Virus record (IMG/VR): IMGVR_UViG_3300032086_002987
Span: 1-32,141 of that record
Length of the DNA: 32,141 nucleotides
Source of the DNA: a virus
Strand: one strand, 5' to 3'
Below the pieces are notes generated by a model. That model saw nothing but the letters and a program-made list of their open reading frames with translations. It was not told where the DNA came from and made no database searches. Below, in pieces: positions 3,213 through 32,141 of the stretch. The position numbers and the translations under genes were made by a program. Positions within the stretch are counted from its first letter, which is position 1; each line of letters opens with the position of its first letter.

Positions 3213-4307
3213 ATGAAGACAGCAGTAATTTTTGGCGTAACTGGCCAAGACGGATCATACTTAACTGACTTGCTACTTTCGGAAGATTACAAAGTGATTG
3301 GCGTCGCCCGAAGAAGTAGTGTGGACACGACCGAACGGATTGACAGGCATGAGAAAAATAATTCTTTTTTGCTAGTTGAGGGAGACATCACGGATGGATT
3401 CTGTGTTTCGGACATTATTAATAAATACCAGCCTGACGAAGTATATAATCTTGCAGCACAGTCTCACGTTGGTACTTCTTTTAAGCAACCGACACTGACT
3501 TGGGATGTTACCGCTGGAGGATGTCTAAATATACTAGAAGCGATCAGAGTTTCCCCAAGATGTGACGATATTAAGTTTTATCAAGCGTCATCTAGTGAGA
3601 TGTTTGGCAAAAACTTTACTGTTACAGATTATGGAAAATATCAAGACGAAGATACGGCTTTTATGCCTCAGTCACCATATGCAATTGCAAAACTTGCAGC
3701 TCACCACTTAGTTAGAAATTACAGAGATAGCTATGGTATTCATGCGTCTAGCGGAATCCTGTTTAATCACGAAAGTGAAAGACGTGGCGAAAATTTTGTA
3801 ACTCGTAAGATTACAAAGTGGATTGGCAGCTTTGTAGAGTGGCTAAATACAAACAATCTTGCAGCGCACCAGTTAACAGCGACTTCATCCGAAAACGAGA
3901 AGATATACGCTTCTGGACACCAAGAATCATTTGATAAATTAAGATTAGGAAATTTACAAGCAAGGAGAGACTGGGGACATGCGAAAGACTATGTACGAGC
4001 AATGTGGCTCATGCTCCAACAGGAAGAGCCAGACGATTATGTCGTCGCTACTGGAGAAACACACAGTGTTGAGGAATTTTTGGAATACGCTTTTAGGCAC
4101 GCTCATCTTGGTGATTGGAGTGAGTACGTGTACATTGACCCTGAATTCTTTAGACCCGCTGAAGTTGATTACTTACTTGGCAACCCGTCCAAAGCAACAG
4201 CAAAGCTCGGATGGGAACCAGAAATAAAGTTTCAAGAGTTGGCTGAATTAATGACGGAGGCTGATATTAATGAGAAATTACGACGACCCGGCTTACAAGA
4301 AGTTTAG
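3213..4307 (+). CDS. gmd: GDP-mannose 4,6-dehydratase
   Basis: This enzyme converts GDP-D-mannose to GDP-4-keto-6-deoxy-D-mannose using bound NADP, the first step toward GDP-fucose and related 6-deoxy sugars. The 364-residue sequence shows the extended short-chain dehydrogenase fold: GVTGQDGSYL at 8-17 (GxxGxxG cofactor loop), RRSS at 33-36 (NADP ribose phosphate), LAAQSHV at 80-86, SSSEMFG at 126-132 (Ser where most homologues have the catalytic Thr, with Glu129), Tyr156 and Lys160 of YxxxK, and GNLQARRDWGHAKDY at 246-260. Residues about 203-245 are longer than in typical GMD, replacing the usual short segment before GNL. An AAAGGAG site lies 5 bases before the ATG. Such genes are known phage auxiliary metabolic genes, thought to alter host surface polysaccharide. 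Its place inside the packaging cluster is unusual. Confidence 0.93.
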   Translation: MKTAVIFGVTGQDGSYLTDLLLSEDYKVIGVARRSSVDTTERIDRHEKNNSFLLVEGDITDGFCVSDIINKYQPDEVYNLAAQSHVGTSFKQPTLTWDVTAGGCLNILEAIRVSPRCDDIKFYQASSSEMFGKNFTVTDYGKYQDEDTAFMPQSPYAIAKLAAHHLVRNYRDSYGIHASSGILFNHESERRGENFVTRKITKWIGSFVEWLNTNNLAAHQLTATSSENEKIYASGHQESFDKLRLGNLQARRDWGHAKDYVRAMWLMLQQEEPDDYVVATGETHSVEEFLEYAFRHAHLGDWSEYVYIDPEFFRPAEVDYLLGNPSKATAKLGWEPEIKFQELAELMTEADINEKLRRPGLQEV

Positions 4308-5690: not shown

Positions 5691-7687
5691 TGAAAAAAGA
5701 AAATATAGAGAAAGTATTGCAAGATGCTTGGCTTGGCATCAATGTAAAAGACGAAGATTTATTTAATCCGATTGATTTTATATTTCACGACGGAGACACC
5801 GATAAGATTTTGGAAAGAATCGCTTGGCTGTTTATGCAACCCGAGTATTTCTCTTTCGCATGTAAATATATCCTCAATATAGAAATTTCTCCGTTTCAAT
5901 CTTTGCTACTAAAAGAAATGTGGAACAAGAAGTTTCCAATGCTGGTTGGCAGTCGTGGTATGGGTAAGTCATTTATACTTTCTGTATATCCATTGCTTCG
6001 AGCCTTATTTATGCCACGGAGAAAGATCATTGTCGTCGGTGCGGCCTTTAGACAGTCGAAAGTGCTTTTTGAATACATGGATACCATCTGGAAGAACGCG
6101 CCTGTTCTGAGGGATCTGTGCGGCTCTAGAAGCGGACCAAGAAGAGATGTTGATAGGTGCGTGATGCATATTGGTGATAGTACAATTACCTGTCTTCCTT
6201 TGGGCGATGGTAGTAAGATTCGTGGTCAACGTGCAAATGATATTATTGCTGACGAGTTTGCTTCCATCCCCAGAGACATTTTTGAAAACGTTGTTGCCGG
6301 TTTTGCCGCTGTAGCTGCGTCTCCAATCGAAAAGGTAAAACAAAGAGCTCAAGAAAAGAAAGCGAAAGAGTTAGGCGTTGTAATCCAAGATGAAAAACAA
6401 AACTCAGGTATCGTAGAAAAATCAAACCAAATTATACTTTCTGGTACGGCATATTATGACTTCAATCATTTTGCTGATTACTGGAAAAGGTATCGAGCCA
6501 TTGTAAACAGTAAGGGCGATAGATTCAAGCTTCAAGAAGTATTTGGTCAAAATGTACCAGAAGACTTTGCTTGGGATGAATATTCTGTGATCCGTATGCC
6601 TGTTACTTCATTGCCCGAAGGCTTTATGGATGATGGCCAAATTGAACGAGCAAGAGCTACTGTACACTCTGGTATCTTCCAGATGGAGTATGGAGCTTGT
6701 TTTACTACAGACAGTCAAGGGTTTTTCAAAAGATCTTTGATTGAAAACTGCATAGCCTCAGAAGAAAACAATCTAAAAATTAAAGGCGAAGAAATACAGT
6801 TTGAAGCTATGCTGAAAGGCGACCCAAATAAAAAATATATATTCGGCGTTGACCCGGCATCGGAAGTTGACAATTTTAGTATTGTTGTTCTTGAATTGAA
6901 TGGCACACATCGAAGAGTCGTTCATGTGTGGACTACGAACAGAAGTCAGCATAGAGACCAACTAAAGGCACACCTTGTGGACGAAGATGATTTCTACTCT
7001 TATTGCGCTAGAAAAATTAGGAACTTGATGAGAGTTTTTCCTTGTGTGGAAATTGCACTTGATGCTCAGGGTGGTGGTATCGCTGTCATGGAAGCTCTGC
7101 ATGACAAAGACAAAATAAGAGAAGGTGAGCTACCGATTTGGCCTGTAATCGACTGGGACAAACCAAAGGACACCGATAATGAACAGGGCCTGCACATTCT
7201 TAAGATGTGCCAGTTTGCAAAGTATGATTGGCTAGCTGAAGCTAATCATGGACTTAGAAAAGACTTTGAAGACAAGATCGTTTTATTTCCTGCTTTTGAT
7301 GCGGTCAGTCTTGGTCTTTCGGCAGAAGACGACAATAGAACTGGCAGAGTGTACGATACATTAGAAGACTGTGTAATGGAAATAGAAGAACTTAAGAACG
7401 AGCTATCTATGATTGTTATGACTCAGACTTCTACAGGGAGAGAAAGATGGGACACTCCAGAAATTAAAGTTGCCGCTGGTAAAAAGAGCAGATTAAGAAA
7501 AGACCGTTACTCTTCTTTGATCATGGCAAACATGAGCGCTCGTCACTTCGGCGCACAGCAATCAGTTGTAAAGTACGATCATTACGGCGGTTTTGCCAAT
7601 AAATCTCAAGGGCAACAACCTAAAGATGATGGCCCTCTCTACAATGGCCCTTCTTGGTTTACAGAAAATCTAGGCGATATCTATTAA
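5690..7687 (+). CDS. terL: Terminase large subunit
   Basis: The DNA-packaging motor, 665 residues, with both expected domains. The ATPase has Walker A GSRGMGKS at 87-94, Walker B DIIADE at 184-189 with Glu189 as catalytic base, and the coupling motif SGTAYY at 251-256. The RNase H-like nuclease has GVDPASE at 386-392 (Asp388), VEIALDAQGGG at 453-463 (Asp458) and a third acidic site in RKDRYSSLIMA near the C-terminus. This nuclease cuts concatemers at the start and end of packaging. Walker A of the GxRGxGKS type is seen in T4-like and related terminases. It starts in the stop of the ClpP-like gene (TAATG). After it comes the first promoter motif of the head module. A charged insert (residues 214-245, KVKQRAQEKKAKELG) separates Walker B from motif III. 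Confidence 0.95.
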   Translation: MKKENIEKVLQDAWLGINVKDEDLFNPIDFIFHDGDTDKILERIAWLFMQPEYFSFACKYILNIEISPFQSLLLKEMWNKKFPMLVGSRGMGKSFILSVYPLLRALFMPRRKIIVVGAAFRQSKVLFEYMDTIWKNAPVLRDLCGSRSGPRRDVDRCVMHIGDSTITCLPLGDGSKIRGQRANDIIADEFASIPRDIFENVVAGFAAVAASPIEKVKQRAQEKKAKELGVVIQDEKQNSGIVEKSNQIILSGTAYYDFNHFADYWKRYRAIVNSKGDRFKLQEVFGQNVPEDFAWDEYSVIRMPVTSLPEGFMDDGQIERARATVHSGIFQMEYGACFTTDSQGFFKRSLIENCIASEENNLKIKGEEIQFEAMLKGDPNKKYIFGVDPASEVDNFSIVVLELNGTHRRVVHVWTTNRSQHRDQLKAHLVDEDDFYSYCARKIRNLMRVFPCVEIALDAQGGGIAVMEALHDKDKIREGELPIWPVIDWDKPKDTDNEQGLHILKMCQFAKYDWLAEANHGLRKDFEDKIVLFPAFDAVSLGLSAEDDNRTGRVYDTLEDCVMEIEELKNELSMIVMTQTSTGRERWDTPEIKVAAGKKSRLRKDRYSSLIMANMSARHFGAQQSVVKYDHYGGFANKSQGQQPKDDGPLYNGPSWFTENLGDIY

Positions 7688-13009: not shown

Positions 13010-13030
13010 TATAGAACCTAATTCTAGAAG

Positions 13031-13065
13031 AAACCGTCCTATTGTCATGATAGGGCGGTTTTTTT
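13031..13065 (+). terminator. Rho-independent terminator after capsid gene
   Basis: A 12-bp stem (13031-13042 with 13050-13061, one G-T wobble, core CCGTCCTAT against ATAGGGCGG), a 7-base loop, and a run of seven T at 13059-13065. It begins 21 bases after the capsid stop. The T-run is also the T-run of the next promoter motif, so one transcript ends where the next would begin. Confidence 0.9.
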
Positions 13066-22060: not shown

Positions 22061-22074
22061 ATTTTTTTGTGTAT
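22061..22074 (+). promoter_or_regulatory. Putative late promoter motif (copy 6)
   Basis: ATTTTTTTGTGTAT, with TGTGTAT at 22068-22074, continuing ATACTTATAA. It lies about 62 bases before the tail-tube gene, a gene that needs very high expression. A weak CGC/GCG hairpin at the upstream stop precedes the T-run. Confidence 0.6.
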
Positions 22075-22135
22075 ATACTTATAACCAAGCCAGAGATAGA
22101 TACAATATATACGTATATTTTACAAGGAGTCAATT

Positions 22136-23143
22136 ATGGCAACTAACAATAGAATATTCTATGCTGTTCAATCAGTTGCTGTTTGTAAAACCGGCTTCCC
22201 GCCATCAGGAGGAGCGAGTGCAAACGTCGCTTTTCTAAAGGGTGTGCAGTCTGTCGGTATTACAACCAACTTTACTCTTGAGCAAGCGTTTGAATTGGGT
22301 CAAGTAGAAATCTACGAAAACTCAGAAGATATTGCTGATGTTGAAGTTACCATCGAAAAATTAATTGATGGTGAAAAACTTATTTACCTATCTGCAGTAG
22401 GTAATGTTGGTAAAACAAATGTTGTTTCTGCTTCAGCTAATCAGTGTGATGTTTACTTAGCTATTTACGCAGATACTAACACTTCAACTGATAGCCAAAC
22501 ACCAGAAAAGGTTGTTAACTGTTCGGGTATGTATGTAAGCTCAATCTCTTATACTTATCCAGTTGATGGTGCTGCAACTGAATCTGTCACTCTTGTCGGC
22601 AACGATAAGTTCTGGTCAGATAACACAGCTGGAGTTATTGCTGATCCGTCAACCAGTTACGGTAGTCCTGCAACAGGAACTGACGGAAGTGATGTTCCAG
22701 TTTCCGGTATCATCAGAAGAAATAATGTTGATGTTGCCGGTTCTACGCTACCTGCAGAAGTGGAAACACAAGGTCCTGCTACAAGCAGACACCTCCAAAA
22801 TATCAGCATCAGTGCTGACTTTGGTCGTGAAAACATTTTGGAACTTGGTCGTTTTGGACCTTACTACAAATATGCTACATTCCCATTTGAAGTTACTTCA
22901 GAATTTGAAGTTATTGCTACAAGTGGTGACTTAGTTAGTGTATCTGGTAATGCAGAGAACTTAACAGATAGAACCATCATTATTAAAGACGAAGCTGGCA
23001 CTACTATTAATTTAGGAACTAAGAATAAACTTACTTCTGTTTCTTATTCTGGTGGTGACACTGGTGGTGGAAACGCAACTGTTTCATTCTCTTACTCAAC
23101 CTTTAACGATATTAAAGTTGATGGCGGAGGAACTTACTACTAA
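22136..23143 (+). CDS. Major tail tube protein
   Basis: A 335-residue protein that begins its own transcription unit with a strong AAGGAG site 8 bases before the ATG. Near the N-terminus, FLKGVQSVGITTNFTLEQAFELGQVEIYE is typical of tube subunits (a strand followed by the 'F-E-x-G' turn). DVEVTIEKLIDGEK and GMYVSSISYTYPVDGAATESVTLVGNDKFW match the main beta-sandwich of tube proteins. The Thr/Ser/Gly-rich C-terminus (YSGGDTGGGNATVSFSYSTFNDIKV) forms the last strands. A tube protein before the tape measure and no sheath-size gene beside it point to a non-contractile tail. At 335 residues it is longer than the lambda or HK97 tube proteins, with the extra length probably in surface loops or a C-terminal domain. 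Confidence 0.8.
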   Translation: MATNNRIFYAVQSVAVCKTGFPPSGGASANVAFLKGVQSVGITTNFTLEQAFELGQVEIYENSEDIADVEVTIEKLIDGEKLIYLSAVGNVGKTNVVSASANQCDVYLAIYADTNTSTDSQTPEKVVNCSGMYVSSISYTYPVDGAATESVTLVGNDKFWSDNTAGVIADPSTSYGSPATGTDGSDVPVSGIIRRNNVDVAGSTLPAEVETQGPATSRHLQNISISADFGRENILELGRFGPYYKYATFPFEVTSEFEVIATSGDLVSVSGNAENLTDRTIIIKDEAGTTINLGTKNKLTSVSYSGGDTGGGNATVSFSYSTFNDIKVDGGGTYY

Positions 23144-24296: not shown

Positions 24297-24662
24297 ATGG
24301 ATGATTATAACAGTTTGTTAAAAACATCTCTTGATCTTAAAAGAAAGAGAGATGAGAAATTTAAGGAGATATCGAAAGATCGTCTTTATCAAATAGCAAA
24401 GAAAAAGATTCAGACGACAATGATCGGAGCTTTAGATAGTATAGAAAAGAACTTTTCATTTTTGTGGGAAAGTGACGGAGAACCCTCTCCAGAACAGACC
24501 CAGCTGAAATCTATATTTGAAGAAGCTCGCGCGGAGATTCTAGATAGAGGAAACACACAAATTAGAAATCTTCAGGCGGAAATGACACATTATGATATTT
24601 CTTGGAAAAGATACAAATTAACTTTACCAGTGGTAGATAAAGGAGAAAAAGATGGAAAATAA
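24297..24662 (+). CDS. Small helical tail-region protein
   Basis: A 121-residue protein, all charged helix: SLLKTSLDLKRKRDEKFKEI, QIAKKKIQTTMIGALDSIEK and EARAEILDRGNTQIRNLQ. No Cys is present and no membrane segment is visible. AAAGGAAG lies 5 bases before the ATG. Its last 11 bases overlap the start of the next gene in the +1 frame. The composition and location before the tape measure fit a tail-assembly factor. Unlike lambda G/GT, there is no canonical slippery heptamer at the overlap, and the next gene has its own strong ribosome site. I recognise no family. Confidence 0.6.
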   Translation: MDDYNSLLKTSLDLKRKRDEKFKEISKDRLYQIAKKKIQTTMIGALDSIEKNFSFLWESDGEPSPEQTQLKSIFEEARAEILDRGNTQIRNLQAEMTHYDISWKRYKLTLPVVDKGEKDGK

Positions 24663-25623
24663 ACCAGAATTTGTAGAAGTTGTAGGGAAGGACTCAAAAG
24701 ACAATGATGTAAAAGTTTTTGTCAAGCAACCCTCAACTAAAGAATACAGAGATTCACAAGTTGAATACAATAGGGCCTTTCGTTCTGCTCTTGAAGGCGG
24801 AGCCATTCTAAAAAAGAAGTTAGGCGAATATATGCGTAGTCAAGGACTTTGGGACGATGCCAAAGATTCTGAAGAACAGAAATTGTTGGCTCGTATTTCT
24901 GATCTTGATGGCCAACTCAAGAAGGGTGGTATTCCACTTTCTGAAGCAAAAGAGATTGCTCTAGACTTGCGTAGAATCAGAGGTGAGTTTAGAATGTTGA
25001 TTGCTGAAAGAACTGTCCTTGATGGTAATACTGTAGAAGGTCAGGCTGACAATGCAAGATTTAATGCCCTTGTTTCTTTATGTGTTTACAAAGAAGACAA
25101 AGCAACACTTGCCTTTAGCGATCTTAATTCATATGATAAAGTTGCTGATGAGGAGTGGGCGGCAAAAGCCGCTGGTGAATTGGCCAGTATGATTTATGAA
25201 CTAGATCCAGACTATGACAATTCATTGACTGAGAACAAGTTCTTGAAAACCTATAACTTTGCTGATGAAACTAATCAACTTGTCAATAGTGATGGTCATC
25301 CAATTTTTGTAGACAGAGAAGATAACAATAAAGAATACCTTATTGATAAAGAAGGTAAATTTATTGCCTATAATACTGATGAAGGATACAAGAATCAAGA
25401 TCCTGAAGATTCGTATCTTGTAAACAAAAATGGTGATAAGGTTGATAAAGACGGCAATATTATTGAGGGATTCTCTCCATTCTTGGATGATTCTGGTAAA
25501 CCAGTTCCAGTTCCAGAAAAAGCTGAAGATTCTACAGAAGAAACTGAAGAAGAAGCAGCTGAAGAAGCGGAAAATGCGCCAAAAAAACGAGGTAGACCAA
25601 AAAAGACTGAGGAAGTCTCGTAA
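24652..25623 (+). CDS. Tail-region protein with C-terminal AT-hook
   Basis: A 323-residue protein whose ATG follows AAAGGAG by 6 bases. Residues 1-190 are a helical and globular part (PSTKEYRDSQVEYNRAFRSA, LLARISDLDGQLKKGGIPLS, LDLRRIRGEFRMLIAERTVL). Residues 205-275 hold short units of a 'V/I-N/D-x-x-G-x' type (LVNSDGHPIFVDRE, YLIDKEGKFIAYN, YLVNKNGDKVDKDGNIIEGF). Residues 280-310 are very acidic (EDSTEETEEEAAEEAEN). The last 20 residues contain PKKRGRPKK (310-318), a textbook AT-hook, which binds the minor groove of AT-rich DNA. The gene directly precedes the tape measure, as tail-assembly chaperones do. A DNA-binding tail on such a protein is unexpected; the basic patch might instead bind the tape measure or another acidic partner. 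Function unknown. Confidence 0.6.
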   Translation: MENKPEFVEVVGKDSKDNDVKVFVKQPSTKEYRDSQVEYNRAFRSALEGGAILKKKLGEYMRSQGLWDDAKDSEEQKLLARISDLDGQLKKGGIPLSEAKEIALDLRRIRGEFRMLIAERTVLDGNTVEGQADNARFNALVSLCVYKEDKATLAFSDLNSYDKVADEEWAAKAAGELASMIYELDPDYDNSLTENKFLKTYNFADETNQLVNSDGHPIFVDREDNNKEYLIDKEGKFIAYNTDEGYKNQDPEDSYLVNKNGDKVDKDGNIIEGFSPFLDDSGKPVPVPEKAEDSTEETEEEAAEEAENAPKKRGRPKKTEEVS

Positions 25624-25638
25624 TTTTGTGTATATAAT
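25624..25638 (+). promoter_or_regulatory. Putative late promoter motif (copy 7)
   Basis: TTTTGTGTATATAAT, with TGTGTAT at 25627-25633, begins at the stop codon of the AT-hook gene, 89 bases before the tape measure ATG. A terminator-like hairpin lies between this motif and the gene it would serve. Confidence 0.55.
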
Positions 25639-25651
25639 TTTGGACAGTCTT

Positions 25652-25695
25652 AAAGGGGTAGTATTGATGCTTAGGCATTGTGCTGCCCTTTTTTT
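25652..25695 (+). terminator. Terminator-like hairpin in the tape measure leader
   Basis: An outer stem pairs 25652-25663 (AAAGGGGTAGTA) with 25681-25691 (TGCTGCCCTTT): eleven pairs, two of them G-T, with one bulged G. An inner ATGC/GCAT stem closes a TTAG loop at 25671-25674. Seven T follow the stem (25689-25695). It has the form of a rho-independent terminator. It lies downstream of promoter copy 7 and 26 bases before the tape measure ATG, so it would end the upstream transcript and could also attenuate a transcript starting at copy 7. Confidence 0.65.
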
Positions 25696-25721
25696 ATTAT
25701 AAACATCGCGCGAGAGAAAAA

Positions 25722-28700
25722 ATGGCAGGAAGATTCGTATTAACAGCACAGTTGCAGGTACAAGCACCTACTAATTTGACGCAGGTTCGTAGACAGATAC
25801 AGCAACAACTTAGTAATGTTACTATTAATCCACAGATTAATACGCAAGCTTTAGCTAATTTTCAGAACCAACTAAACAATACAAATAAAGCTGCACAAAA
25901 CGCAAATAAAAATTTAAGAAATGCTAGCAGATCCGCTTCTAGTCTAGGAGCGTCTTTAGGTGCTGCCGCTAGAAGATTTGCTTCTATTACTTTGGCCACT
26001 GGTGCATTCTTAGCTTTGGCTAGAGGTATTAGTGAAGCATTTGGTAGAGCGATTGAGTTTGAAAGAGAGCTAATCAAGATATCTCAGGTTACAGGTAAAA
26101 GCGTAAGCTCTCTGAAGGGTTTGACTGCAGAAGTCACCAGACTTTCTACTAGCTTGGGTGCGTCTTCTGCTGAACTTTTGAACGCATCAAGAACGCTATC
26201 TCAGGCGGGTTTTTCGGCGACAAAGGCGAAGCAAGCGCTTGAGATTTTGGCACAGACTGATCTAGGTGCTACGTTTGAAAATATAGCGGATACTACTGAA
26301 GGTGCAATTGCTCTTTTGAGGCAGTTTAGAAAAGAAGCCGCAGCCAGTGGTGGAGACATAGCTTTTCTTGGTAAGTCTATAGATGCAATCACTGCCGTTT
26401 CTAAGAACTTCGCTGTTGAAGCTAGCGATTTAATTGCTGTGATACGTAGAACTGGGGGTGTGTTTGAGGCTGCAGGCGGTAAGATTAATGAGCTGATTGC
26501 CTTATTCACTTCTGTTCGTGGTACAACTCGTGAAACTGCTGAAACTATCGCTACTGGCTTTAGGACGATTTTTACTCGTATTCAGAGAACAGAAACAATA
26601 GATCAACTTAGAGAGTTAGGAATTGTTCTGCAGGATTCAAGCGGTAAGTTTGTCGGCCCTCTTGAGGCAATTAGAAAGTTGTCATTGGCTTTAGGTGCTT
26701 TAGATCCTAGAGACTTTAGATTTTCACAAATCGTTGAACAGCTTGGTGGATTTAGACAGGTCGGTAAAGTTATTCCGCTTATCAAGCAATATAGCACAAG
26801 TGCTGAAGCTTTAGCTATCGCTAACAATTCTATGGGAGAAACTGCTAGAGACGCACAGAAAGCTCAACAAGGCTTGGGCGTAGAGTTCCAAAAATTAGGT
26901 GAGAAGTTCAATGCTACTATTCGCCGCATCGCAGACAGTGACACATTCCAAAGTTTGGCTAGAGGTGCTATACAATTAGCAGAAGCTGTGCTCAAAGTTG
27001 TTGATGCGCTAGAGCCTTTACTTCCAATGCTGACCGCTTTAGCTGCTTTTAGTTTAGGTAGAATAGCTTTACCTGCTTTAGGTCGATTTTCTGGTGTGAC
27101 AGGAAGAAATAAGGGCGGCAGGATATACGGATTTAATCAAGGCGGTCTTGTTCCGGGAGTTGGAAATAAAGACACTGTTCCTGCAAGATTGACGGCTGGA
27201 GAATATGTTCTCCAGAAGTCTGCCGTTCAGCGTATTGGTGTAGACAATCTGGCAGCTATGAATGCCGGCATGGGATATAATGCTGGTGGAACAGTAACTG
27301 CCGGAAAGAATTTTTACGGAATGACAATGCCTAAACCGGGAGCTTCAATCGCGCAAGATGCGGCTAGAGCTAGAAAAACACTTGGCACACCAAAAAAAGG
27401 AGGCACCGCAAAGAGTGGCCAACCTGTAGACATGGGCAGACTGAGAAGCGCTATATCATCAAGTACCATGTCCTTCGCTCTTGCTGGAGGCAAAGCTCCG
27501 GGAGGTTTGTCTCTTAGTCTTGCACAGCAATCAGGCTTTTACACAATGAGTAAAGATAGAAGCCTCGGTAGCGCTGGTTTACCTTTGAGTTCTTTATCTA
27601 GAGATGCTTATGGAGCTTTAGTTTCAGCGGTAATGGGGCGACATCCCGCAGTTAAAAGAAAAGATGTCGATATGGTCAGAAAGGGCGGTGGTAGGCTGAA
27701 GGGTTCCCTTATGGGAGGAATGAAATTTCCTGTAGCGAATATACAAAGTGAAGGGTTGAGAAAAGCGCTTACAAATGAACTCAAAGGATTTGCAGAACAG
27801 CATGTTGGTGAAGGTGTTCATGACACCCTGAAGTCTATACAGACAGACGAAAAAACTAAGAAGCTCATAAAAACAGCAGGTCTTAAGATTACAGACAAAG
27901 ATATAAAACGAGCCACTAAAGCCAGTAAAAGAGATGATCAGGCTGTAGACTCTATGGTTGGTTACATGTTTGAAGGTGCGATAAATGGGTTGACAGGAGC
28001 TACACCTGCTACGGGCCAAGCTAGTTTTGATATACCTAAAGGGTCAATGAGATCTGCTGCATCTGGCATGAAGGGGCTTTTCGGTGCTCAGACTTCTAAG
28101 ATGTTAATGGCGGAAGTCAAGAAAAATAACAAGAAATTTTCGTCAATACCAAGTAAGCTTAGTACCTTTATTGAAAACAACAAGACAACATCACGGTCGA
28201 AAACTGGCCTTAGACATAAAAATATTAAGGTTGGAGCTTACAACAGAGGGGGACAAGTAGATACTGTTCCTGCTGTTCTTACTCCCGGAGAATATGTTAT
28301 GACCAAAAGTGCTTCTGAAGCTATTGGTTATGATAATCTAGACAGAATGAATAAAACTGGTGTTGCCCATTTCAATGCTGGTGGTATAGTTGGCGGTACT
28401 GTCCGTGCTGGCAAAAATTATTATGGTGCTAAACCTCAGCCGGGCTTTCCTGCACCTCTGTCTGGTCCACGAGTAAACACGCCAAATACGCCTAATCAAA
28501 AGCAGGGTGGTGGAAATTTGGCTGTGCTTGGCCTACTAGCTTCGACTGCCGGTTCAGCCGCTGCACAAATGGGTAACTTTGAAGAAAGCACAGCAAACAT
28601 GATTACTCAATTTTCTATGTTAGCTGCGGTTGTTGCGCCTTTAATATTTGAGATGACCAAAGCCGCACTTTCAACGAAGTTCTTTAGCGAATCAACTCAA

Positions 28701-31700
28701 AAAGGCGCAGGTAAAATTGCTGCGGGGTTCGCGGTTGCTGCAGCAGCCACAGCCTTAGTGGTCTCTATATATAATAAACAAGCAGCGGAGGCAAAAAAAC
28801 AAGTCGCAGCCCAAAGAGAACAGATATCAAACCTAGCTGAAGGTAAAGCTGTTGGTTCAAGTTTAAATGAGCTCAAACAAAAAGTTCAAGAAAATGCTAA
28901 CGCTCAAGAGCAAGCGAAAGCCTCTGCTACGGGTGCGACATACGGGGGTGGAGGAGGAGCTCTAGCGGGTGCGGGTATTGGCTTTGCTCTCGCCGGGCCT
29001 ATTGGTGCTGGTATTGGTGCTGCGATTGGCGGTATTACAGGTGCGATTGCTGGCGGAGAGGTTGTGGGCACGAGCTCCGGGACAACCAGTGATGAGCGAA
29101 AAGCTTTAGATGATGTCACGATAGCCGCGTATAAGTCTGCCCAAGCCATCGGAGAATACACTACAGCACAATCAGAAATCAACAGGCTCGGTTTAGAGGG
29201 TGCAGATAGATTAAAAGCTCAAAATGAAGCTTCAAGAAAATTTAACGCTCAATCTAGAGATGCTACAAATGCTTTTGAGAAGCTGAAAGACATTGATCCA
29301 AAAACAATGGGCGTTGACGCTATTAAAGAAGGGTTTGAACAGGCAAAGGGCTTAGCTGAGGAACAAGGCAAAGTTGCAATGCAGGTAGCTAGTGATACAA
29401 AAGCTAGCCTTGATTCTGTGTCACAAGATTTTCTTAATAATGGCAAAAGCGCCAAAGAGTTATTTGCTAATCCAGACTTCAAACAGGGGATGTTGAATTA
29501 TGTCCAATCTCTTGAGCAAGGCTATGCTGCTCAGCTTTTCTCAAGTGGCGCCTTAAGAGAACAAGCTGAAGAGGCGGCTAAACTCACAGAAGGTTTTAGC
29601 GCGCTTGACGAGGCAGGCAAAGAAAAGAGAATTCAGGAACAAGAATCGGCTATGGTCCAAGCCAAAGCCTCTAAAGACGCTAGAGATGCTGGTAATAAAT
29701 ATCTAAAATCAATCCAAGACCAATCTGATGCAAATGAAAAAGCTAGAAAAGAAGCGGCGCAGAGAGCTGCTGTAGAAAGGCTCTTGGCACAGAAAGCTCA
29801 AGCTGCTGCCGACGCACTAGCCAAGTTTGAACAATCCGCAGCTATGATGGACCAAGCGATGAAGAATATGGACATTGCTATGGGTAACTTGACGGGTACT
29901 GTAAAAAGGCATAAAGTTGAAAATGATAAACTCATTGCCGGTATTGCTAAAGGTAATGTAACTGCAAGTGGCTCAGCTGCATTGACTCAAATCGGAAAAG
30001 ATTTTGGCTTAGAAGACGAAGCAAAAGCTATAAATAATATTCTAAAAAGAGAGCGAGCTGTTAGAGAAAAACTTGTAGCCGGTATTGGTAAGTTCGGGGG
30101 TTTAGGAGGAGAAGCTGGCTCGAAAGAAAATATCAAGAAATTTGTTGAATCAGCTGGTATTAATTTTGATGGCTTAAGCGACGAGATACAAGCGGAAATA
30201 GAAACAAAATTCAGGGACGGTATTGATGCTGCTGATATAGAAGCTGTCATGAAGCTTCTCAAGACACCTGTAGATGCTCAAGTAAAAGTTTTCCAAAAAT
30301 TAGCTCAGCTTCAGAACCAATATCTAGATAGACTTGACACAGCTAATCAGGCTATCTTAAAAGCAAAAACAGAGTTTAGAAAATCTCTCGTCTTTGAAAA
30401 CAAGGTCAGAGTTACTGGCATAAGAAGACTGTTCAAAGCTTTAGGTAAAGAGGTTGGAGTAAGAGAAGAAAGACAAATACAGGCAATGGAGGTGGGCGCT
30501 AGAACTCGTCCGCTTGGTGTCGCTCCAAACAGGACAGCAATTGTTGGCGGTATAGCTGCCAGAAATGCTAGATTGCAGCAATTGAGAACTGCCGGCGCAG
30601 ATGGTGGAGTAGGAGGTGTCGCTGCCGCAAATGAAATGAGAGAACTTCAGGCAGAAACAAAGGTACTCAAAGAAGCCCTTAAAGAACTAACAGACCAGAC
30701 AAAGATCGCAGAAGCAATTTTCGCTGACCTCGAAAAGGAAAGAGAAAAGCGCGGAGTCATGCAAGACCAGATCAAGGACTTTACTTTTGCTACTAATGAG
30801 GGCAGAAGGGAAATGACTCAAAACTTCATGGCGCTCAATAGAGTTCTACAGACGGGCGACTTAAATGCCATTCCTGATAAATTTAGAGGTGCAGTTGGTC
30901 AGCTTTTAGATCAGTTCAAAGATATACCTATTTTCCAAGGTCAGACTGGAGGCGATATTTCTAAGAGGCTTCAGATACAACAGCTTGATAGACAGTTTAG
31001 ATTTGCTAGTGGAGGAAGACAAGGAGTACCTCCAGAATTAGTCAAGGCTATTTTTGAAGCAACAACTAAAGAAGAAAAGTTGATTGATGACCTTAGAAAA
31101 CTTAATCAGGAAGAACAGCAGGCTGCACAAGCTCTTACGAAAATACAATCGCAAGAAAATACTCTTCTTATTGAAAACATGAAAATGCTTATTAACCAGA
31201 TTAAGCTACTGGTACAAGCTTTCACTGCTCAAGCAAAACCGGCTGCGAAAAAGGCTAATGGTGGATTAATTTATAGAGCTGGTGGCGGATCAATATTCCA
31301 ACCAAGAGGCACTGATACAGTTCCAGCAATGTTGACTCCGGGTGAGTTTGTTATAAGGAAAAGTGCTGTTGACAAGATTGGTGTTGGTGCACTTACTGCA
31401 CTTAACAATGGTAATGCCAGTACTGTTTACAGGGCTAACGGTGGTTTTGTTGGATCTACATCTGGAGGAGCTCTTTCATTTGCCGCTTCTCTGGCTAATA
31501 TAATGCTTGCTGACCCACGAAAACTTAATGAAACTGCACTATTTAAGACGGCGTCTCAAGACGGGAAAAAGAAAGGGCTTGAATCTCTCAGGAACTTTGC
31601 AAAGGCTCCAAATTTTGGCAATAGTATGCTTGGGAATATAGCTACTATTGTTCGTGTTGCTGGCGCACTTGGAGACCCTAGATTAGGATTAGTTAAGTTT

Positions 31701-32141
31701 GGCAGGATAGATCAACCGGGTAACCCTAAGTTAGGTGACTTCGCTACACTTTTAAGTGAAGCTGGAGGACTATTGTCTATACAGGGTGGTGGTATGAACC
31801 CCTCACTAAAACTCAATCCCGCCTTTAGAAAAAATGCAAGACTTGTAGCTGTTCCGCAAGCAAGAAGGGATGCATATGAGTACGCTGGCACCAACCCAAC
31901 AGCAATGCAGTTACTTAATAATCCAGCGACTAAAGATCAGGCTCAACAGGCTATTCTTGCTCATGCATTTTTGAAAAATAGTAAAAACCCTAGTGTTATT
32001 GGGGGTAGAGCTCTCGCTGCGGGTGCAAGTATAACAGGTCCTCAAAGAGCTCTAATAAAACAGTTCTTTCCTCAGTTATGGGCGAATACTGGAGGTCTTC
32101 TAGAATTTCTAACATCAGCCGAGGGTCAGGCGAAAAAAGGT
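25722..32141 (+). CDS. Tape measure protein, incomplete at window end
   Basis: The open frame runs from 25722 to the last base without a stop, 2140 codons, so the true protein is longer. It sets tail length and probably enters the host membrane with the DNA. Residues 1-60 are Gln/Asn-rich. Residues 60-400 form the conserved tape measure core (FERELIKISQVTGKSVSSLK, TLSQAGFSATKAKQALEILA, RTGGVFEAAGG, TRETAETIATGFRTIFTRI). Three copies of a TVPAxLTxGEYV-type motif lie at about residues 472, 840 and 1846. There are hydrophobic segments around 930-985 (LAVLGLLASTAGSAAAQM; MLAAVVAPLIFEM). A glycine-zipper, alanine-rich stretch around 1073-1117 (AGAGIGFALAGPIGAGIGAA) suits membrane insertion. Long coiled coils fill 1150-1700. 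The ribosome site is weak (GAGAG). By length, the tail should be unusually long, well over 300 nm if about 0.15 nm per residue applies. Confidence 0.92.
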   Translation, partial: MAGRFVLTAQLQVQAPTNLTQVRRQIQQQLSNVTINPQINTQALANFQNQLNNTNKAAQNANKNLRNASRSASSLGASLGAAARRFASITLATGAFLALARGISEAFGRAIEFERELIKISQVTGKSVSSLKGLTAEVTRLSTSLGASSAELLNASRTLSQAGFSATKAKQALEILAQTDLGATFENIADTTEGAIALLRQFRKEAAASGGDIAFLGKSIDAITAVSKNFAVEASDLIAVIRRTGGVFEAAGGKINELIALFTSVRGTTRETAETIATGFRTIFTRIQRTETIDQLRELGIVLQDSSGKFVGPLEAIRKLSLALGALDPRDFRFSQIVEQLGGFRQVGKVIPLIKQYSTSAEALAIANNSMGETARDAQKAQQGLGVEFQKLGEKFNATIRRIADSDTFQSLARGAIQLAEAVLKVVDALEPLLPMLTALAAFSLGRIALPALGRFSGVTGRNKGGRIYGFNQGGLVPGVGNKDTVPARLTAGEYVLQKSAVQRIGVDNLAAMNAGMGYNAGGTVTAGKNFYGMTMPKPGASIAQDAARARKTLGTPKKGGTAKSGQPVDMGRLRSAISSSTMSFALAGGKAPGGLSLSLAQQSGFYTMSKDRSLGSAGLPLSSLSRDAYGALVSAVMGRHPAVKRKDVDMVRKGGGRLKGSLMGGMKFPVANIQSEGLRKALTNELKGFAEQHVGEGVHDTLKSIQTDEKTKKLIKTAGLKITDKDIKRATKASKRDDQAVDSMVGYMFEGAINGLTGATPATGQASFDIPKGSMRSAASGMKGLFGAQTSKMLMAEVKKNNKKFSSIPSKLSTFIENNKTTSRSKTGLRHKNIKVGAYNRGGQVDTVPAVLTPGEYVMTKSASEAIGYDNLDRMNKTGVAHFNAGGIVGGTVRAGKNYYGAKPQPGFPAPLSGPRVNTPNTPNQKQGGGNLAVLGLLASTAGSAAAQMGNFEESTANMITQFSMLAAVVAPLIFEMTKAALSTKFFSESTQKGAGKIAAGFAVAAAATALVVSIYNKQAAEAKKQVAAQREQISNLAEGKAVGSSLNELKQKVQENANAQEQAKASATGATYGGGGGALAGAGIGFALAGPIGAGIGAAIGGITGAIAGGEVVGTSSGTTSDERKALDDVTIAAYKSAQAIGEYTTAQSEINRLGLEGADRLKAQNEASRKFNAQSRDATNAFEKLKDIDPKTMGVDAIKEGFEQAKGLAEEQGKVAMQVASDTKASLDSVSQDFLNNGKSAKELFANPDFKQGMLNYVQSLEQGYAAQLFSSGALREQAEEAAKLTEGFSALDEAGKEKRIQEQESAMVQAKASKDARDAGNKYLKSIQDQSDANEKARKEAAQRAAVERLLAQKAQAAADALAKFEQSAAMMDQAMKNMDIAMGNLTGTVKRHKVENDKLIAGIAKGNVTASGSAALTQIGKDFGLEDEAKAINNILKRERAVREKLVAGIGKFGGLGGEAGSKENIKKFVESAGINFDGLSDEIQAEIETKFRDGIDAADIEAVMKLLKTPVDAQVKVFQKLAQLQNQYLDRLDTANQAILKAKTEFRKSLVFENKVRVTGIRRLFKALGKEVGVREERQIQAMEVGARTRPLGVAPNRTAIVGGIAARNARLQQLRTAGADGGVGGVAAANEMRELQAETKVLKEALKELTDQTKIAEAIFADLEKEREKRGVMQDQIKDFTFATNEGRREMTQNFMALNRVLQTGDLNAIPDKFRGAVGQLLDQFKDIPIFQGQTGGDISKRLQIQQLDRQFRFASGGRQGVPPELVKAIFEATTKEEKLIDDLRKLNQEEQQAAQALTKIQSQENTLLIENMKMLINQIKLLVQAFTAQAKPAAKKANGGLIYRAGGGSIFQPRGTDTVPAMLTPGEFVIRKSAVDKIGVGALTALNNGNASTVYRANGGFVGSTSGGALSFAASLANIMLADPRKLNETALFKTASQDGKKKGLESLRNFAKAPNFGNSMLGNIATIVRVAGALGDPRLGLVKFGRIDQPGNPKLGDFATLLSEAGGLLSIQGGGMNPSLKLNPAFRKNARLVAVPQARRDAYEYAGTNPTAMQLLNNPATKDQAQQAILAHAFLKNSKNPSVIGGRALAAGASITGPQRALIKQFFPQLWANTGGLLEFLTSAEGQAKKG
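27136..31420 (+). repeat. Three TVPAxLTxGE(Y/F)V motifs in tape measure
   Basis: Units at about 27136-27270, 28240-28360 and 31256-31420 encode a Gly-rich lead-in, then DTVPARLTAGEYVLQKSAV, DTVPAVLTPGEYVMTKSAS and DTVPAMLTPGEFVIRKSAV, followed by IGxxxLxxMN or IGxxxLxxLN. The first two are also followed by AGKN(F/Y)YG. They match at the protein level, not closely at the DNA level. Confidence 0.8.

Follow-up and report, generated by a model that had tools for sequence, protein, structure and literature searches.

A conserved promoter-terminator leader that probably keeps tape measure gene output low in a group of uncultured, mostly marine phages

Genes around the leader

The sequence analysed here, referred to as the window, is a fragment of 32,141 bases from IMG/VR. 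It comes from a large group of bacterial viruses, uncultured and mostly marine, whose DNA reaches 138-158 kb in relatives of the window. The terminase of the window is at best ~25-27% identical to those of cultured phages, so that the searched collection contains no cultured phage close to the group. Matches to genome bins were discarded as evidence for the host because these metagenome bins were mixed, with Flavobacteriales, SAR202, Verrucomicrobiales, and others among them.

The leader under study lies between two genes on the + strand. The upstream gene (24652-25623) encodes 323 aa with a Lys-rich C-terminal tail, and its homologs are 50-72% identical and syntenic. The downstream gene (25722-32141, open at the window end) is firmly identified from profile matches (PF10145, 1.3e-22; phrog_28, 7e-26) as the tape measure protein (TMP) gene; it runs for 2140 codons in the window and for 2404-3300 codons in relatives with longer DNA. 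A GAGAG at 25712-25716 is a possible weak ribosome-binding site for TMP. Within the TMP frame, ~80 bases (~31308-31387) have 82% DNA identity to a region of Synechococcus phage S-SCSM1 annotated as lysozyme/endolysin. In the annotation of Staley and CB473P1, the TMP gene starts either directly at the end of the preceding gene or 16 nt beyond it.

Further upstream, the gene at 22136-23143 (+) encodes a probable major tail (tube) protein, as its AlphaFold model (pLDDT 77.7) matches siphophage tail-tube proteins, the best structural match being 8xan (E 1.4e-10).

A repeated late-type motif and a candidate sigma factor

The upstream TAA directly abuts TTTTGTGTAT (25624-25633), which forms part of the putative promoter copy 7, TTTTGTGTATATAAT (25624-25638, +). 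Seven copies of the motif were found on the + strand of the window (~1587, 7691, 9908, 13065, 18926, 22068, and 25627), five of them with exact TTTTGTGTAT, while neither the minus strand of the window nor a reversed-pattern control gave any. The conserved part is TGTGTAT, and the copies precede late genes on the + strand. In the TMP loci of relatives, where intergenic DNA is ~3% of the bases, 138 intergenic matches were on the + strand and 6 on the - strand. In a profile of 55 TMP and 82 other copies, almost every copy, whichever its class, has a purine 9 nt downstream of TGTGTAT; we took this purine as the start point of transcription, predicted to be G25642 (+) in the window. GG at the predicted start is largely confined to TMP leaders (51/56 TMP motif hits versus 13/84 other copies; one of the 56 is a chance TGTGTAT inside the loop of L107).

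A generic promoter scan for the housekeeping sigma-70 hexamers (TTGACA/TATAAT, 16-18 apart) made no call at 25624-25638. The window does encode a phage sigma factor with sigma-70 region 2 (1918-2418, +; PF04542, 25.6 bits, above the cut-off), and such proteins are encoded in 13/13 large relatives checked. A repeated, strand-biased motif before late genes together with a phage sigma gene is the pattern of a phage sigma-dependent late promoter, and the sigma factor at 1918-2418 is a candidate reader of the motif. A match to single-subunit RNA polymerase was found in none of the 13 relatives, which is a weak negative as the PF00940 control matched nowhere; PsbA likewise had no match in these 13. 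The motif copy at 1587 lies just upstream of the sigma-factor gene, so the sigma factor may drive its own expression. Adjoining the sigma gene is a nucleotide-sugar epimerase / GDP-mannose 4,6-dehydratase-like gene (3213-4307).

A terminator-like hairpin between the motif and the tape measure gene

Downstream of copy 7, the leader folds into a hairpin at 25652-25692 (+) with an RNA MFE of -21.9 kcal/mol (z -3.99; 0/200 shuffles as good). A stable, G-C-rich hairpin with a T tract right after the stem (seven T, 25689-25695) is the form of an intrinsic (Rho-independent) terminator, and we infer that transcription would terminate here. The sequence-only reading had placed copy 7, a hairpin with seven T, and the TMP ATG (25722) in this order, with a terminator some 50-60 bases after the start. 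Both statements hold, with the G-C-closed stem core now set at 25656-25688 and the predicted start at 25642, so that the predicted short leader RNA (25642-25695) would be ~53 nt long.

Scanning all T runs on both strands of the 32 kb returned only two strong terminators, 13034-13065 and 25656-25695, both on the + strand; the values of the d'Aubenton-Carafa type score used are relative only. A generic terminator scan did not list the TMP-leader hairpin, because its rules are simple and the stem is broken by an unpaired base. Rfam gave no match over the gathering score in the window. At the other strong terminator (13027-13065, +) the order is terminator then promoter, as had been proposed, and the two even share sequence: the T run of the terminator (13059-13065) is that of promoter copy 4.

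Conservation of the layout among relatives

Relatives were gathered with the TMP N-terminus, which yielded 77 distinct leaders including that of the window (76 without it). When these were clustered by TMP at 80% identity, the motif was present in the leader of 33/50 clusters, and the hairpin then followed in 32/33. Absence of the hairpin from relatives, which had been named as grounds for giving up the idea, was looked for, and the hairpin is present. The nine closest relatives (a set that left out L095) retain GGACAGTCTT followed by AAAGGGGTAG and (G)CTGCCC(C)TTTTTT, or slight variants of these, while the loop changes freely; the 5' part GGACAGUCUUA is near-identical. The stem and unpaired parts of distant clades are entirely different, and these clades nevertheless keep the order of stop codon, motif, start, hairpin, T tract, and TMP ATG. 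The order thus persists between very distant relatives, L184 (AGTGTATATAAT, hairpin, ATATTTTTA) being the most diverged of those that show it.

The spacing is kept as well. In 55 leaders, the motif starts at a median of 1 nt after the upstream stop codon, the stem mostly starts 26-37 nt after it, and the predicted leader RNA is 29-67 nt (median 47). No conserved RNA sequence was found in the leader across clades. RNAalifold over mixed clades was weak, since the stems are not homologous column by column, and covariation in the window's own clade was one-sided only.

Exceptions to the layout are of three kinds. A clade of 12 has TMP without motif or hairpin (L169-L173, L175, L176, L179, L181-L183, and L186); six relatives have a terminator without the standard motif (L158, L164, L165, L166, L180, and L185); and in L153 a small ORF is inserted between the promoter-terminator unit and TMP. 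In most of the clade without the motif (L169, L171-L173, L175, L179, L181, L182, and L186), the upstream stop is followed by TGGATAGTGTAGTC or a slightly altered form. This piece lies just before the TMP ATG, essentially once per locus, and most of its variable positions are three bases apart, which hints at a tiny ORF (MDSV-like). The giant hairpins of L158, L164, L166, L160, and L167 contain a similar piece.

Specificity of the terminator for the tape measure gene

Among intergenic copies of the motif, a hairpin of <= -10 kcal/mol follows 48/56 TMP hits versus 3/84 others (Fisher p 2.6e-25, uncorrected for kinship of the sequences). Apart from the tally by 80%-identity clusters, the counts reported here are not phylogenetically independent. 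The stricter terminator score gave 22/55 TMP copies versus 0/83 others. In 52 leaders, T accounts for 58-90% of the bases at each of positions +1 to +7 beyond the stem and fades by +10, the enrichment being limited to the first ~9 bases. Several clades have a short T tract or one offset by 2-4 bases (median d-score -5); termination may be weak in these clades, and its efficiency may vary widely.

Across 1.07 Mb of relatives, strong terminators are found in the TMP leader (22 loci), after the tube gene (~23), and rarely elsewhere. The second hotspot lies 2.2-2.5 kb before TMP, just after the homolog of 22136-23143; in L162, for instance, a strong terminator at ~7549-7583 (CAAGGTCGCCTACGC...GGGCGATCTTG-TTTT) follows the tube gene and is conserved in ~23 relatives. 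The window itself has only a modest hairpin after the tube gene. Promoter copy 6 (22065-22079, +), predicted to serve the tube gene, has no terminator between it and the gene. In 28 aligned relatives, the tube-gene leader (e.g., L124:6414-6441) carries a conserved element, (C)CTTTACCAGAGG, exactly where transcription is predicted to start; ACC in it may be enclosed by a 5-bp stem. The leader of the window (22065-22135) carries the diverged form AACCAAGCCAGAGATAG.

A brake on tape measure transcription and its alternatives

With moderate confidence, we favour the interpretation that the TMP leader is a promoter-proximal terminator that brakes transcription initiated at copy 7 as well as transcription arriving from upstream, leaving low readthrough for TMP. 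A late-class promoter, probably recognised by host RNA polymerase with the phage sigma factor, would initiate at G25642, and its polymerases would reach the intrinsic terminator within ~50 nt; polymerases coming from the tail-tube region would encounter the same terminator. The last ribosome on the upstream gene should not mask it, as the stem starts ~30 nt beyond the stop codon (28-32 nt in the window, depending on whether A-T pairs are counted). For tR2 in E. coli, the last ribosome masks the terminator at distances below ~27-30 nt from the stop, and efficiency is ~0.9 beyond this distance (PMC4824070). Most transcription would thus stop in the leader, producing either a ~53-nt RNA or the 3' end of upstream mRNAs, and a minority would read through to give TMP mRNA, which would match the few copies of TMP per tail. 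As the promoter-then-terminator arrangement is real, specific to TMP among the promoters of the phage, and conserved, limiting TMP output is the best supported of the three functions offered by the sequence-only reading.

The second of these functions was an attenuator needing antitermination. No antiterminator fold came within 3 kcal/mol of the terminator (median -1.4 versus -14.5 kcal/mol). ORFs spanning the hairpin occur in 25/55 leaders, whereas shuffles of the unpaired part give an expectation of 28.5; control of the trp or riboswitch type is thus not supported. The candidate leader peptide of the window clade was rejected, its frame being broken by a 2-nt insertion (L104 and L105) and early stops (L088 and L108).

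The brake explains only in part why a promoter is placed before the terminator. A weak promoter or a lone terminator would suffice for low output, which argues against dosage as the only aim, and dosage alone explains neither this order nor the GG start of TMP leaders. That the promoter is strictly kept upstream suggests that its RNA, or a hairpin at the 5' end of the mRNA, also matters. Regulated antitermination, in which RNA polymerase starting at copy 7 would read past the terminator only once modified by a factor of the phage or host, would account for a promoter followed at once by a terminator, for the retention of the promoter upstream, and for a GG start specific to TMP leaders. Yet the unit precedes only TMP while other late genes are served by the motif with no such unit, no NusG-type factor was matched in 13 relatives, and the leader carries no sequence element conserved across clades, which together make this mechanism unlikely. 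The broader notion of a regulated gate, whereby a short RNA from copy 7 is the default and a phage factor licenses timed readthrough into TMP, we regard as doubtful; if true, tape measure supply would be coupled to the stage of assembly across a whole family of mostly marine phages.

Alternatively, the hairpin could shield the long TMP mRNA from 5'-end decay, with termination being incidental. Such a role would account for the promoter upstream of the hairpin and for the weak T tracts of some clades, and the tube-gene leader likewise has a conserved element at its predicted start. However, T is enriched only over the few bases that immediately follow the stem, as in a terminator, whereas the element of the tube leader lacks such T, and some relatives keep the terminator without the motif; we find a stabiliser quite improbable. 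Still less probable is a dedicated gene for a small RNA of ~50 nt that merely happens to be located before TMP. Although it would have its own promoter, its own terminator, and a 5' part that is near-identical in the closest relatives, this unpaired part differs in other clades, Rfam has no match, and the element always lies before TMP. The third function proposed from the sequence, a short leader RNA, has little support as a trans-acting RNA for the same reason, the difference of the 5' part between clades. A search for targets of the 5' part found AAGACTGTCC exactly once elsewhere (1980-1989) along with a few one-mismatch places, slightly above chance. The site at 1980-1989 lies in the sigma-factor gene, and AAGACTGTCC is exactly complementary to the ten bases with which the predicted leader RNA begins; this match is probably due to chance. 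Finally, that motif and hairpin are unrelated pieces of AT-rich intergenic sequence has a negligible probability: with two mismatches allowed, the window shows no more than a mild enrichment of the motif, but the hairpin z (-4.0), the conservation over tens of clusters, and the strand bias of the intergenic motif hits already contradict it.

Comparison with known systems

One of the closest parallels is the late leader of lambda, pR'-tR', with its 6S RNA and Q antitermination. Both have a late promoter closely before an intrinsic terminator and would make a short RNA if termination wins. They differ in that pR'-tR' serves the whole late operon with a leader of ~190, whereas the TMP unit serves TMP only with ~50 nt, uses a motif unlike the sigma-70 consensus, and has no antiterminator identified by a search confined to the NusG family. 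In promoter-proximal attenuators of the trp/pyrBI and riboswitch types, too, a single gene has an intrinsic terminator that acts prematurely in its 5' leader, but the TMP leader has neither their competing antiterminator fold nor a leader-peptide signal. Our literature search, with subscription papers largely outside its scope, returned no tape measure gene described as having a leader of this kind. The positions given here are precise enough to be tested, in a group of phages that lacks cultured relatives.

T-phi of T7, a partial terminator after gene 10, lowers transcription past an abundant structural gene. The TMP leader would resemble it in stepping transcription down after such a gene, but T7 uses another polymerase (single-subunit matches in 0/13 relatives, with a control that matched nowhere), and the TMP unit has a promoter first. 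One known tail-cluster terminator near tube and tape measure genes is alike in location; it stands after the tube gene, like the second hotspot of the relatives, and is not a promoter-then-terminator unit at TMP. The copy numbers required of tail proteins differ greatly, from a handful for the tape measure to hundreds for the tube. In essence, the TMP leader and the hotspot after the tube gene suggest that these phages set tail-protein dosage at the level of transcription, with the promoter-terminator leader probably serving to keep the output of the TMP gene low.
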